Assembly: GCA_002429425.1 (NCBI GenBank) | Contig: DIZR01000087.1 | Location: 1 to 5,624, forward strand | Length of the DNA: 5,624 nucleotides | Origin: Patescibacteria group bacterium UBA6023 | GTDB lineage: Bacteria; Patescibacteriota; Minisyncoccia; Phycocordibacterales; UBA6899 | Reading direction: 5' to 3' | In this document: positions 582 through 5,575 of the stretch, piece by piece | Layout: the number at the start of each line of letters is the position of its first letter | Position numbering within the stretch: position 1 is the stretch's first letter | Made by a program: the position numbers and the translations under genes | Notes under the pieces: generated by a model | Databases searched by the model: none | Seen by the model: only the letters and a program-made list of their open reading frames with translations | What the model was told of the DNA's origin: nothing

Positions 582-2057
582 TCATACGTCTCGTTGGTAA
601 TCAATCACATCATTCAGCAACTGCTCAAGGTGCAAAAGATCCTTCGCCTTTTTTATTAAACTGGGTGTTGGTTCCGTATTTTCACGAATGAAGATACTCG
701 ACTGATTTTCAATCCCATAAATAAAATGTTCCTCCACAAACGCACGAAGTTTTGTCACATCACCAATAATATCGCTTGAATCAAGAAGTACGATACTTAT
801 TTTTCGAGAACCAAATTCAGTAACCGGTACATCAAATATGAGCATCGCACTTCCATTATTATCTTGACTCTTCGCAACAATGCCACCACGATATGCTCCG
901 TCATCAGAAAGTACAAATGGATTTTTATTTGACCATGCATATCGCTCATCCCCATTGCTATCGGAAAGTGTCCGCTCCTTTGCCATCGTGACATCAATCA
1001 AGAAATGCTTTTGTTTCTCCACATAACGCAATAATGTTGCAAGGTCTCGTGCGGTCGTCGTTGATTCATCAGTTGAAAGCGCTCCTCCGAATTTAGTTTC
1101 ATCCATACCGATTGCACGGCTCTTTTCATTCATATATCGCACAAATTGTCTGGTTCCATGTTCACGAGCAAATACTTTTGCAGCAGTGTCACTTTCATCA
1201 AACAAGAGCGGGTAGATAAGTGTCCCGACCGGCATTTCATCAATTGCGCCGATGGGATGCTTGCGCAAAATAGAAATACCAAGCAAGAGCTCGCTCATAC
1301 GTACCAACTTGTATTGGTTCACCGTTTCGAGTGCAGTAAGTGCAGTAACAAGGAGAGTCAAGCCCTTAGGATTTCTTGCTTCTCGTGCGCCATGTTCCCA
1401 CAATATCTTCCCCGAATCAATATCTTCAACCACGAATGTGCTTGCAGAAATCGTCGGAGGTGTACCCTCTCCGTGAAGATAGTATCGTGAGGATGTTGCA
1501 AAATCACTCGCATGAGCAGAATTAAGCACAATAAGTTTTGCACCCTTTGGAATAAATTTATACACTTCGCCCGCATCAACCGTTCCAAGTCGAATGCATC
1601 CGCCGGAATACCCCACGGGCACATCTTCCCCGTTTGTATATGTTGGCCAACCATGAATAAAAAAATTCCCATAAAACTGCATACTGTAAGGCATCCAAGT
1701 CCCACCGATCGAGGAGAGGTGCTTTACTTCTTTCAATTGAATCGCATAGGAACCTGATGGTGTCTCCCATGGAGTTCCGGGACGACCTTTTGAAAGAATA
1801 GGGAAAGTTTTTACAAGATTTGCATCCTCAAAAAGTGAGAGTTGCATCGTTTCGAGGTTTGCAATGAGCGCGCGACCCACCGTCGGTACTTTTTCCTCTT
1901 TTCGGGGCATATCATTCATTGCAAATTTATATAATAAGGCAGTTGAATGTGTACCCTCTTTTGCCGGCGGGAAAAGCATGCTTCCGCCGATAACAATTGC
2001 AACGAATGAGAACCATGCTCCGGCGAACATATATAATTGTCTATGACGATTATCCAT
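582..2057 (-). CDS. Membrane-anchored L,D-transpeptidase fused to degenerate S11 carboxypeptidase-like domain
   Basis: A 491-residue envelope protein. Residues about 9-29 form a single membrane anchor; the remainder is probably extracytoplasmic. Residues about 60-178 are a YkuD L,D-transpeptidase domain, which makes 3-3 peptidoglycan crosslinks: FIHGWP with His135, then YSGGCIRLG with catalytic Cys154. The family signature is H-X14-17-[S/T]HGC; here the spacing fits but the second His is Gly152. Residues about 203-447 align with the PBP5/DacA-type D,D-carboxypeptidase fold (VVEDIDSGKILWEHGAREAR, VTALTALE, MPVGTLI, STTTARDLATLL), but its catalytic motifs are gone: SxxK is GLTL (232-235), SxN is ESD (288-290), KTG is RGG (390-392). 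The second domain is therefore probably a non-catalytic ligand-binding or scaffold module. The start is ATG 2057: an in-frame TAG seven codons upstream excludes longer forms. No Shine-Dalgarno lies directly before it. It ends in TGA. Confidence 0.9.
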   Translation of the reverse strand: MDNRHRQLYMFAGAWFSFVAIVIGGSMLFPPAKEGTHSTALLYKFAMNDMPRKEEKVPTVGRALIANLETMQLSLFEDANLVKTFPILSKGRPGTPWETPSGSYAIQLKEVKHLSSIGGTWMPYSMQFYGNFFIHGWPTYTNGEDVPVGYSGGCIRLGTVDAGEVYKFIPKGAKLIVLNSAHASDFATSSRYYLHGEGTPPTISASTFVVEDIDSGKILWEHGAREARNPKGLTLLVTALTALETVNQYKLVRMSELLLGISILRKHPIGAIDEMPVGTLIYPLLFDESDTAAKVFAREHGTRQFVRYMNEKSRAIGMDETKFGGALSTDESTTTARDLATLLRYVEKQKHFLIDVTMAKERTLSDSNGDERYAWSNKNPFVLSDDGAYRGGIVAKSQDNNGSAMLIFDVPVTEFGSRKISIVLLDSSDIIGDVTKLRAFVEEHFIYGIENQSSIFIRENTEPTPSLIKKAKDLLHLEQLLNDVIDYQRDV

Positions 2058-2854: not shown

Positions 2855-3226
2855 CTATTTTTTCAATAAATCACGTATTTCCATAAGAAGCTTCTCTTCG
2901 GGAGTCGGTTCAGGTGGAAGCACGGGATTTTTTTCTTCCTCTTTTTTTATTACAGAAATTCCTTTCACTGCCATAAATAATGCAAAGGCGACAACGACAA
3001 ACACAAACATCGCTTGAATAAACTTTCCATACGCCACGTGTGATTGTCCAATATCAACCGCAAGTCCCGAAAAATTTATTCCACCGGTAAAAGCACCAAT
3101 AATCGGCATGATAACATCCCCAACAAGTGAGGTAGTAATAGCACCAAACGCAGCACCAATTGCCACACCAACCGCAAGGTCAACAACATTCCCTTTTATT
3201 GCAAATTTTTTAAATTCTTGAAACAT
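2855..3226 (-). CDS. mscL: Large-conductance mechanosensitive channel MscL
   Basis: Inner-membrane pore that opens under high membrane tension and releases solutes during osmotic downshock; the family works as a homopentamer. The 123 residues fall within the usual 120-150. Residues 1-13 ([13 protein letters not shown]) form the amphipathic N-terminal helix, and the family hallmark [20 protein letters not shown] leads into the pore-lining first membrane helix (about 14-43, ending DVIMPIIG). A periplasmic loop covers about 47-66, the second membrane helix about 67-93 ([19 protein letters not shown]), then the charged IKKEEEK linker and the C-terminal helix [14 protein letters not shown] of the cytoplasmic bundle. 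The periplasmic loop is short, typical of compact members. Start ATG 3226 has no clear Shine-Dalgarno but gives the canonical N-terminus. It is divergent from the membrane-protein gene at 3353 and convergent with the deoxyribosyltransferase gene. Confidence 0.97.
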
Positions 3227-3352: not shown

Positions 3353-3931
3353 ATGCAAATATTTATACTCATTCTGGGTATGTGTATCATCATGACAATC
3401 TATTTCATTGCCATCAAGAGGCATCAGCTGAGGAGGGGGATATGGCATAATTTTATTTTGGAACTACTCAAAGTATGTACCAATGAACTGGAAAATGCAG
3501 CACGATATGCGATCATCATGCGCAGAAGTGAATCCTTTGCACAAGCCGAGCTTGCGTCACCGGAATTTAATTGCACATATGTATGGTCGACAAAGTCTAC
3601 GCAAACTAAGGACAACGAGCTATGGCTTCTGCGTACCATTGAAGGAAAAATATATCTCGGAACAAGTAGGTTCTATCATCTTGCAAATCATTTTCTACTC
3701 TGGAATAAGGATGTTCATGAAATTGTTTTTCAAATCACCCAATTAAGAAATGTAGGAATAGGTCCCAATCAGAATGGTATTTCGTACGAATTGTTGGTAT
3801 TCAATAAAAATGGGCATCAAGTCATCGCAGAAAATGGTGCATACACACCACTAAGCGAAGAGTGTCGCCTATTATTTAGCAGAATATTTCGAACACTTCA
3901 CGCGCGAATGTATTTTTCTTCTGATTTATGA
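3353..3931 (+). CDS. Hypothetical single-pass membrane protein
   Basis: I do not recognise this family. The 192-residue product begins with a hydrophobic segment (about 2-21, MQIFILILGMCIIMTIYFIA) followed at once by the basic stretch IKRHQLRR (21-28). This suggests an uncleaved N-terminal anchor with the rest on the cytoplasmic side under the positive-inside rule. The soluble part looks mixed alpha/beta: a helical 31-70 (ILELLKVCTNELENAARYAIIMRRS), then strand-rich LWLLRTIEGKIYLGTSRFYHL, VHEIVFQITQLRNVG and SYELLVFNKNG, and a final helix 167-187. The strand part loosely resembles small membrane-proximal PH-like or YcxB-like domains, but I see no diagnostic motif and assign no function. It has a good Shine-Dalgarno site and its own terminator at 3966. 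It is divergent from mscL, sharing a 126-base upstream region. It ends in TGA. Confidence 0.75.
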   Translation: MQIFILILGMCIIMTIYFIAIKRHQLRRGIWHNFILELLKVCTNELENAARYAIIMRRSESFAQAELASPEFNCTYVWSTKSTQTKDNELWLLRTIEGKIYLGTSRFYHLANHFLLWNKDVHEIVFQITQLRNVGIGPNQNGISYELLVFNKNGHQVIAENGAYTPLSEECRLLFSRIFRTLHARMYFSSDL

Positions 3932-4008: not shown

Positions 4009-4410
4009 CTAATTAGGATTCATGCGAGATTGCAAAAGCCTAATTTGTGCGCCAATTTTTACTTCCTCTTCTGTGTCTCCCGACATCTTTGCTTGTATTT
4101 CTCTTGTGCGCAATATTTCAAGAGTCTCCTTGTTCCATTGTTCACGAGTCTTTTCTTCTCCAGACTCTTCAAGGGGAGGAATATTCACCATGTCCTCGGG
4201 AGCGAAGTACGCAGGGGTCGTATCTACCTTTCCAAATGGATCATGTTTTGAAATGTTTGGTAGTGAATGTGCAAGTAGTCTTTCTGCAGCTCCAACTTGT
4301 TCTTCACTCACCCCTTCACCAGCATACTTGTGATCAGCATCACGCAATTTCCCGGCTGTTTCTCTACCGAACGTTGATTCCTCATCTCCAACTAGTGATA
4401 TTTTTTCCAT
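4009..4410 (-). CDS. Hypothetical small acidic protein
   Basis: I do not recognise this family. The 133-residue product is soluble, strongly charged and rich in Glu, with no signal peptide, membrane segment or cysteine. The N-terminal third (EESTFGRETAGKLRDADHKY, then VSEEQVGAAERLLAHSL) looks like short helices. The middle is Pro-rich (FGKVDTTPAYFAPEDMVNIPP, about 59-79) and probably extended. Residues about 82-128 (EESGEEKTREQWNKETLEIL, AKMSGDTEEEVKIGAQIRLL) should form one or two amphipathic helices. That it is a real gene is supported by a perfect TATAAT with an extended -10 just upstream and by balanced codon use. The composition suggests a cytoplasmic binding or regulatory protein, but nothing identifies a partner. 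Start ATG 4410 has no Shine-Dalgarno and a leader of only about 18 bases. It is in the same orientation as the upstream secreted-protein gene but separated from it by a terminator, so it is a separate unit. Confidence 0.7.
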   Translation of the reverse strand: MEKISLVGDEESTFGRETAGKLRDADHKYAGEGVSEEQVGAAERLLAHSLPNISKHDPFGKVDTTPAYFAPEDMVNIPPLEESGEEKTREQWNKETLEILRTREIQAKMSGDTEEEVKIGAQIRLLQSRMNPN

Positions 4411-4522: not shown

Positions 4523-5551
4523 CTAGTTTACTGTTGTCGTTGCTGATGGTGCCGTTGTGCTTCCCATCATCATTCCATGCTCGTCTCCCCCCTCCCTCTT
4601 CATTCCATGCTCATTCTTGTGTTCCTCTCTCTTCATCATCATTGAACCTTCATGCTCTCTACTCTTCATCATCGCAGGAGCAGTAATGTCTCCACATGCG
4701 AGATACACGCCAATTTCATCAGCGGACTTATGCACGTTGATACTCAATGGTAATCCTGCAAGTATATCCTTTGTTGAAACAGTAAGTACTGTCTCTGACT
4801 TCCCGTCAACCACCGATGAAAGTGGATATTTTACTGCACCAGGTGTTGGGCATGAACCAACATGAATGTGCGCTGGTTGACTCATTGTACCCGTTGCCAT
4901 CATGGCATCACCGGACAGGTGATTATCTCCCTTCATCATGTCATCACCATGCTCAAGTCTAATGCGCACTACTGCTTTTCCATCCGCATTATCCTTGATC
5001 ATCGCCATACCCTTAAGACCCGAATTATTCTGTGCACTGAAATGCACCACGAGCGTATTCTCCATGTTGCGAAGAAGCCCTTCGGGAATCTTTCCTGACT
5101 TTCCTGCTCCGCCCTCCATGAGAAAACGATTGAGGATCTCACGCGTCTTTGGTCCAACTTCACCAACTCCTTCAAGTCCTTGTTTTTCCTGGAAACGTTT
5201 TACTGCCTTTGCGGTCAAAGGACCAAATTTCCCCGTAATGAGACCCTCTGGATAGATTGCTGGATCTGTTGCAAGTGTCTCCTGAAGAACCTTCACATCA
5301 TCGCCTGAATCTCCAAGATGCAATTGCCTCTTCGCAAGTTGCAAATCACCTCGCATTGCAGTCATTGTTGTCTTCTGTGAAGCAATCGAAGCCTTCAATG
5401 ACTCAATGAGCTTCATAAGCATCTCAACTTTTGCCTGCAATGTAGCAATATCACCTGTTGGTGTTGTTGTACTTTCTGCGGAGGCAATCGATGCGCCACT
5501 CATAAACATGAGCGAAGCAATTGCCAGCGTAGCGGTTAAATTCTTTTTCAT
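4523..5551 (-). CDS. Secreted peptidoglycan-binding protein with SodC/CHRD-like domain and Met/His-rich tail
   Basis: Exported, probably wall-bound protein of 342 residues from ATG 5551 (in-frame ATGs at 5557 and 5569 would add 2 or 6). Numbering below is from ATG 5569. A signal peptide starts MKKNLTATLAIASLMFMSG and ends at an A29-S-A31 cleavage site. A coiled-coil helix spans about 40-82. A PG_binding_1 domain follows at about 82-150 (LHLGDSGDDVKVLQ, GLITGKFGPLTAKAVKRFQ). A beta domain at about 170-295 holds HIHVGSC (His234, His236, Cys240), INVHKSADE (His280) and YLACGDI (Cys292), in the order of the Cu/Zn superoxide dismutase HVH...C, VHxxADD and ACG motifs, but without the zinc loop; a CHRD domain is the alternative reading. 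A Met/His/Glu-rich tail covers 299-335. This suggests metal binding at the wall; enzyme activity is unproven. No Shine-Dalgarno is visible, and the sequencing adapter cuts the upstream region. Confidence 0.85.
   Translation of the reverse strand: MKKNLTATLAIASLMFMSGASIASAESTTTPTGDIATLQAKVEMLMKLIESLKASIASQKTTMTAMRGDLQLAKRQLHLGDSGDDVKVLQETLATDPAIYPEGLITGKFGPLTAKAVKRFQEKQGLEGVGEVGPKTREILNRFLMEGGAGKSGKIPEGLLRNMENTLVVHFSAQNNSGLKGMAMIKDNADGKAVVRIRLEHGDDMMKGDNHLSGDAMMATGTMSQPAHIHVGSCPTPGAVKYPLSSVVDGKSETVLTVSTKDILAGLPLSINVHKSADEIGVYLACGDITAPAMMKSREHEGSMMMKREEHKNEHGMKREGGDEHGMMMGSTTAPSATTTVN
4565..4672 (-). repeat. Degenerate Met/His-rich tandem repeat in the protein tail
   Basis: Encodes residues 300-335 (numbered from ATG 5569), about three imperfect units that each begin Met-Lys-(Ser)-Arg-Glu and carry His: MKSREHEGSM, MKREEHKNEHG and MKREGGDEHG. 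At DNA level CATTCCATGCTC recurs exactly at 4571-4582 and 4601-4612, 30 bases apart, both encoding EHGM. Confidence 0.7.
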
Positions 5552-5575
5552 ATTCATATAACAAATCATTAATTA

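Follow-up and report, generated by a model that had tools for sequence, protein, structure and literature searches.

A penicillin-binding-protein fold that has lost its catalytic motifs in a fusion with a predicted L,D-transpeptidase of Patescibacteria

Why would a cell keep a carboxypeptidase fold from which every catalytic motif has gone? The question is raised by a 5,624-nucleotide stretch of DNA from Patescibacteria group bacterium UBA6023 (contig DIZR01000087.1), a member of a group of very small and uncultured bacteria; the stretch is analysed here at full length and called the window. One of its genes encodes a YkuD-type L,D-transpeptidase (LDT) followed by a domain resembling PBP5, a DD-carboxypeptidase of peptidase family S11. 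The original prediction, made from the sequence alone, proposed that this S11 half is retained for a non-catalytic role, which is still the best reading. With about as much belief as doubt, we propose that the S11 half, fused to a predicted membrane-anchored LDT, is a docking scaffold and not an enzyme.

Loss of the catalytic motifs

As predicted, an S11-like domain and an LDT share one reading frame. At an E-value threshold of 0.001, Pfam matched only YkuD and S11 in the fusion; no LytM (M23) domain was found. The frame is undamaged from ATG to stop, as had been claimed, and this rules out a pseudogene. The YkuD motif residues are present: His135 lies in FIHGW (133–137), and Cys154 and Arg156 lie in SGGCIRL (151–157). 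For the His/Cys check we assumed the LDT pattern HG...[ST]xGC[IV]R. By model and by profile, the S11 half retains a PBP5-type fold, as the original prediction held. Its three catalytic motifs are gone; SxxK reads GLTL, SxN reads ESD and KTG most likely reads IVA.

The original prediction had read the last motif as RGG, which is out of register. In intact relatives a conserved GG stands ahead of K-x-G, and residues G391-G392 line up with it. This GG is found in 97/97 clade members with a live LDT and in 24/24 sister sequences with an intact S11 half. Hence, the KTG site is placed at I393-V-A395. One pairwise alignment puts it two residues further on; KTG is absent under either placement.

The same loss is seen in 104 close relatives with a length of 420 amino acids or more. 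This set comprises the protein-search (P) matches up to P0107, together with P0120 and five locus-derived (L) rows. It excludes the window's own protein (P0002), four P rows duplicating locus rows, and P0034, P0055, P0064 and P0081, which are shorter than 420 amino acids. Overall, 17 duplicate rows were removed. Ser232 is found in 8 relatives and Lys235 in 1, never together. Similarly, Ser288 is found in 2 and Asn290 in 3, never in the same protein, and position 393 is basic in none. Homologues with intact motifs, which the original prediction expected of a lone decayed copy, are therefore absent from the clade (0/104) and occur in other branches of the fusion family. A lone decayed copy is ruled out.

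History of the loss and constraint on the domain

The protein search gave 700 relatives from 7993 scored candidates, 120 of the 700 being listed. A genome-contig scan gave 138 relatives, of which the best 80, corresponding to 79 distinct loci, were kept. The hosts named for the fused loci are, we presume, Patescibacteria. Most of the LDT–S11 fusions examined outside the clade retain SxxK, SxN and K-x-G, and the main clade sits beside intact fusions of other Paceibacteria.

A tree of 138 rows, built with the motif columns left out, requires no fewer than 8 changes from one state, intact or degenerate, to the other. The rows were taken from 214: all 98 locus-derived rows except L096 and L023_p_3569, making 96, and a selection of 42 from 116 P rows. 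A careful tree of 57 of these rows defined the degenerate state more narrowly (loss of the SxxK Ser, the SxxK Lys or the KTG Lys) and left out the short forms described below, L142 (KVA, borderline) and L054/L061/L065. It needs 6 changes. Across 200 bootstrap trees of the 57 rows, 0% had one change and the 5–95% range was 6–7. A single loss common to all degenerate copies is thus unsupported; the marked branches force 6 (57-row) or 8 (138-row) changes. The count itself cannot separate loss from gain, and we read the changes as losses because a separate intact S11 gene is present in 35/35 genomes checked. By these trees, degenerate S11 copies lie on several branches of the fusion family. The separate branches include L032, L086, L145, L146/L150 and the L051/L055/L063 group, in which the SxxK Ser is Ala and the Lys is retained. 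P0111 and L131 group with the main clade in the 57-row tree.

Constraint was assessed as the divergence of S11 residues 199–450 over that of LDT residues 58–180. For 97 members that combine a motif-less S11 half (pseudo-domain) with a live LDT the median ratio is 1.59; for 81 intact fusions it is 1.57. Judged from these alignments, the domain diverges about as its intact counterparts do. Residues near-invariant in intact rows have been replaced in the clade at A231, S232, K235, S288, N290, D325, G328, N332, K393, G395, A400 and T403, and also at I230, S289 and S334. The original prediction asked whether the degenerate motif positions are conserved. This holds at 290 and fails at 232, 235, 288 and 395, where the new residues vary. 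The replacements that are fairly conserved are D290 (87/97), G325 (75/97), S328 (72/97) and N289 (71/97).

The clade also has a signature of its own. W220, L257, F286, W381 and D290 are fixed in the clade and absent from sister intact rows (0/24); R390 is mostly fixed (Table 1). In the window protein, residue 381 is F. W220 is found in 95/97 pseudo-domain members with a live LDT, in 0/24 sister intact rows and in 0/59 other intact rows. Q248, Y249 and K250 occur in 97, 97 and 93 of the 97. Sister intact rows already have Q248 in 22/24 and Y249 in 12/24; Q248, W375 and E414 are common in that group.

A group of 18 members (P0103 and relatives; support 99/94) is double-dead, having lost the LDT cysteine as well. 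Both domains are still recognisable in these proteins (P0091, P0094, P0098, P0101, P0103 and P0122–P0134). Glu replaces Arg156 in 15/18, His135 is kept in 17/18 and an intact S11 motif is found in 0/18. L219, W220, Y249, F286, N289, W375 and E414 are kept in 18/18; position 290 is Asp in only 4/18. Median distances are 0.82 for the LDT half and 0.79 for the S11 half, with a ratio of 0.87 versus 1.36 in 11 live references. The LDT cysteine was lost independently in P0063, and is also lost in P0120, a long branch of unsure placement. Matches to P0103 in searches of 397 and 383 genomes did not exceed 42% identity, and none of them was recognisable as double-dead. Because the 18 members retain the pseudo-domain signature, the role of this domain seems to outlast LDT catalysis.

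The genomic setting was examined in 35 chosen fusion-holding genomes, 12 with a degenerate fusion and one more (G337) with a borderline fusion. By alignment, each of the 35 also has an S11 gene outside the fusion whose motifs are intact. In G358, one S11 gene (L169, 250 amino acids) runs off the contig end and may belong to a fusion; the other (L216, 308 amino acids) is intact, so the count holds. The separate S11 gene of the window genome (L001:1306-2307) lies between genes for ScpB and a glycosyltransferase-4 protein, the latter presumably MraY-like. YkuD was detected outside fusions in 4/35 genomes (G288, G337, G294 and G103) and not in the other 31, several genomes being incomplete (the window's is 82% complete), so that failure to find a gene does not prove that it is absent.

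A possible docking role and its rivals

Intact fusions look like both steps, DD-carboxypeptidase and LDT, in one chain. The ancestor would have been such a one-chain machine, its DD-carboxypeptidase half making tetrapeptide donors for the LDT half. Since an intact S11 gene exists apart from the fusion in each such genome checked, the fused half would have been free to lose catalysis, and may have been retained for binding. The partner of the pseudo-domain might be the cell's separate DD-carboxypeptidase, a peptidoglycan synthase or an LDT belonging to an adjacent chain. Docking would then place the LDT, usually the cell's only YkuD, where tetrapeptides are made. Steering of this kind would resemble that by dead LytM domains, which dock and steer autolysins.

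Could the domain instead act only within its own chain? The dead half would be a spacer or fold partner that keeps the LDT upright and stable, and would have no outside partner. This is possible though doubtful. The full-length members are fused to an LDT, 31/35 genomes have no other detected YkuD, and the median divergence ratio is that of intact fusions. However, the 18 double-dead members keep the signature without the LDT cysteine, and their LDT and S11 halves diverge at similar rates. Short forms with an eroded S11 half also retain a complete LDT motif. Positioning of the LDT as the only role, one suggestion of the original prediction, is weakened by the double-dead subclade. Its other suggestion was that the domain holds pentapeptide stems; the dead pocket would still bind D-Ala-D-Ala stems and pass them to the LDT. 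Consistent with this, the PBP fold is kept, some replacements close to the former site (D290 and N289) are fairly well conserved, and a pocket on the non-catalytic accessory NTF2 domain of Pgp2, an LD-carboxypeptidase, binds peptidoglycan (excerpt of PMC8038945). We nevertheless regard stem holding as unlikely because the catalytic set, invariant in intact relatives, has been replaced along with other near-invariant positions, and variably so at the four sites given above.

A new catalytic activity, relying on conserved polar residues elsewhere in the domain, is most improbable. Some polar residues are indeed fixed in the clade, D290 and K250 among them. However, most near-invariant polar residues are common to intact relatives, and so are probably structural, and Asp290 is rare in the double-dead group. 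Neutral decay of a redundant domain awaiting deletion finds some footing in the other intact S11 genes of all 35 genomes, and in the erosion of the S11 half in some lineages. For the clade it is largely refuted by constraint, and we give it very little credence: among the 104 full-length members identity falls below 40%, many positions are near-invariant, and the domain has diverged to nearly the same degree as in intact copies. Neutral decay may apply to the short forms. With stem holding disfavoured by the replaced catalytic set, and a role limited to LDT catalysis disfavoured by the double-dead clade, the most likely role remaining is that of a docking scaffold.

Several observations weigh against a docking scaffold. 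The slope through zero of pooled S11 on LDT divergence is 1.60 for pseudo-domain members and 1.46 for intact fusions, and the ratio in the closest pairs is 1.66 (131 pairs) and 1.08 (15 pairs), respectively; these pairwise divergences are not independent of each other. Taken with the median ratio, these values indicate that the dead domain drifts at most slightly faster than the intact one. Synonymous divergence (dS) was undefined in 26/30 domain comparisons from the DNA of six genomes, and we make no claim on the ratio of nonsynonymous to synonymous divergence (dN/dS). Four comparisons with dS of 1.7–3.8 gave dN/dS of about 0.17–0.33, which we do not rely on. Scaffold positions drift in the double-dead group (K312 in 3/18, K350 in 0/18). 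Ten other degenerate rows mostly lack the clade signature, P0111 being nearest, and the signature residues could reflect core repacking instead of a docking face. The domain is dispensable in places, as eight short forms have a complete LDT motif and an eroded S11 half. The whole fusion is likewise dispensable in places; it is present in 6/8 genomes of the window's family and absent from 2/8. Because the replacements at 290, 325, 328 and 289 are fairly conserved, it may be that the former site was remodelled and not abandoned. Such a site could itself serve docking, as in DipM, where the degenerate catalytic site is proposed to be central to docking (excerpt of PMC10336132). Lastly, the docking partner and interface are a proposal by analogy.

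The short forms are L059, L064, L066, L068, L069, L072, L073 and L074, of 294–326 amino acids. In the two family genomes without a fusion (G289 and G291), YkuD and S11 matches lie on different contigs and the S11 is intact.

More tentatively, the serine-PBP fold may have been turned several times into a pure scaffold for wall synthesis, its binding role so far freed from chemistry that one clade carries two dead enzymes in a single chain, LDT and carboxypeptidase, with both folds conserved. Non-catalytic wall regulators are known from dead LytM domains; a conserved motif-less PBP fold joined to an LDT would add the PBP fold to them. The several degenerate branches with intact sisters would make the non-chemical contribution of a carboxypeptidase fold to a cross-linker directly testable. 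There would also be a bearing on the organisation of wall synthesis in ultra-small bacteria, which have few enzymes for it. Our literature searches, which covered sources in part, turned up no LDT–S11 fusion or such pseudo-PBP. The available part of an LDT review (PMC12729407) contains none of the terms 'fused', 'accessory domain' and 'Patescibacteria'.

The locus and known systems

Table 1. Features of the fusion gene, in window coordinates
Feature	Positions	Strand	Remarks
LDT-pseudoS11 fusion gene	582..2057	-	491 amino acids; ATG to stop, single open frame
Predicted N-terminal membrane helix, residues 3-27	1977..2051	-	helix in model; hydrophobic stretch in translation
YkuD LDT domain, residues 62-177	1527..1874	-	Pfam PF03734, E 2.3e-15; genome match G000:C43:1527-1874
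PBP5-like S11 fold, residues 195-450, catalytic motifs lost	708..1475	-	
LDT His135 (FIHGW)	1653..1655	-	kept in 104/104 clade members
LDT catalytic Cys154 (SGGCIRL)	1596..1598	-	kept in 97/104 clade members
Former SxxK, G232-L-T-L235	1353..1364	-	Ser and Lys together in 0/104
Former SxN, E288-S-D290	1188..1196	-	Ser and Asn together in 0/104; Asp290 in 91/104
Most likely former KTG, I393-V-A395	873..881	-	basic residue at 393 in 0/104
R390-G391-G392, directly before KTG site	882..890	-	GG conserved; R390 in 81/104
W220, clade signature	1398..1400	-	
Q248-Y249-K250	1308..1316	-	

An SGNH/GDSL hydrolase gene (1–516, + strand) is convergent with the fusion, and the same pair occurs in L004 and L006 among 26 loci tested; L113 and L115 are the same genes as these two pairs. 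The MscL gene (2855–3226, − strand) lies upstream of the fusion, as it does in L004, L005 and L006. Hence, SGNH/GDSL hydrolase, fusion and MscL form a conserved neighbourhood. Elsewhere in the window, 4523–5569 (− strand) encodes a protein with a PG_binding_1 domain (88–146), the remaining C-terminal region having no Pfam match. Open reading frames 3353–3931 (+ strand) and 4009–4410 (− strand) also have none. The contig end (5594–5624) matches what we take to be a Nextera transposase adapter. Its 19-base core has 11 copies in the genome, 5 of which start at one of a contig's first 17 positions; the end is probably untrimmed adapter.

The window protein differs from PBP5-type DD-carboxypeptidases (DacA) by absent SxxK, SxN and KTG, by its LDT fusion and by its predicted N-terminal membrane helix. 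It is like the E. coli LDT YcbB (LdtD) in having a YkuD domain with His135, Cys154 and Arg156. In E. coli, PBP5 makes the tetrapeptide used by YcbB, and YcbB depends on this separate PBP5 (excerpt of PMC5089857); the window LDT instead carries a motif-less S11 domain. YkuD proteins may instead have LD-carboxypeptidase or anchoring activity (excerpt of PMC12729407). Hence, the YkuD half of the window protein is a predicted cross-linking enzyme that could also have either of these activities.

Intact LDT–S11 fusions of other Paceibacteria have the same domain order. With SxxK, SxN and KxG retained, they would have both enzymatic activities; the window protein lacks these motifs. Some add CapA (PGA_cap): by Pfam domains, at least 10 triple LDT–S11–CapA fusions of 766–816 amino acids are among the matches listed, and P0110 was checked individually. 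S11 motifs are intact in these proteins (P0108–P0110, P0112, P0114–P0117, P0119 and P0121).

Dead LytM regulators (EnvC, NlpD and DipM) likewise have a peptidoglycan-peptidase fold without catalytic residues, and a docking role has been proposed for them (excerpt of PMC10336132); by analogy, the fused S11 half may act in the same way. The dead LytM regulators differ in having a LytM fold, not a serine PBP fold, and their targets are amidases and other autolysins.
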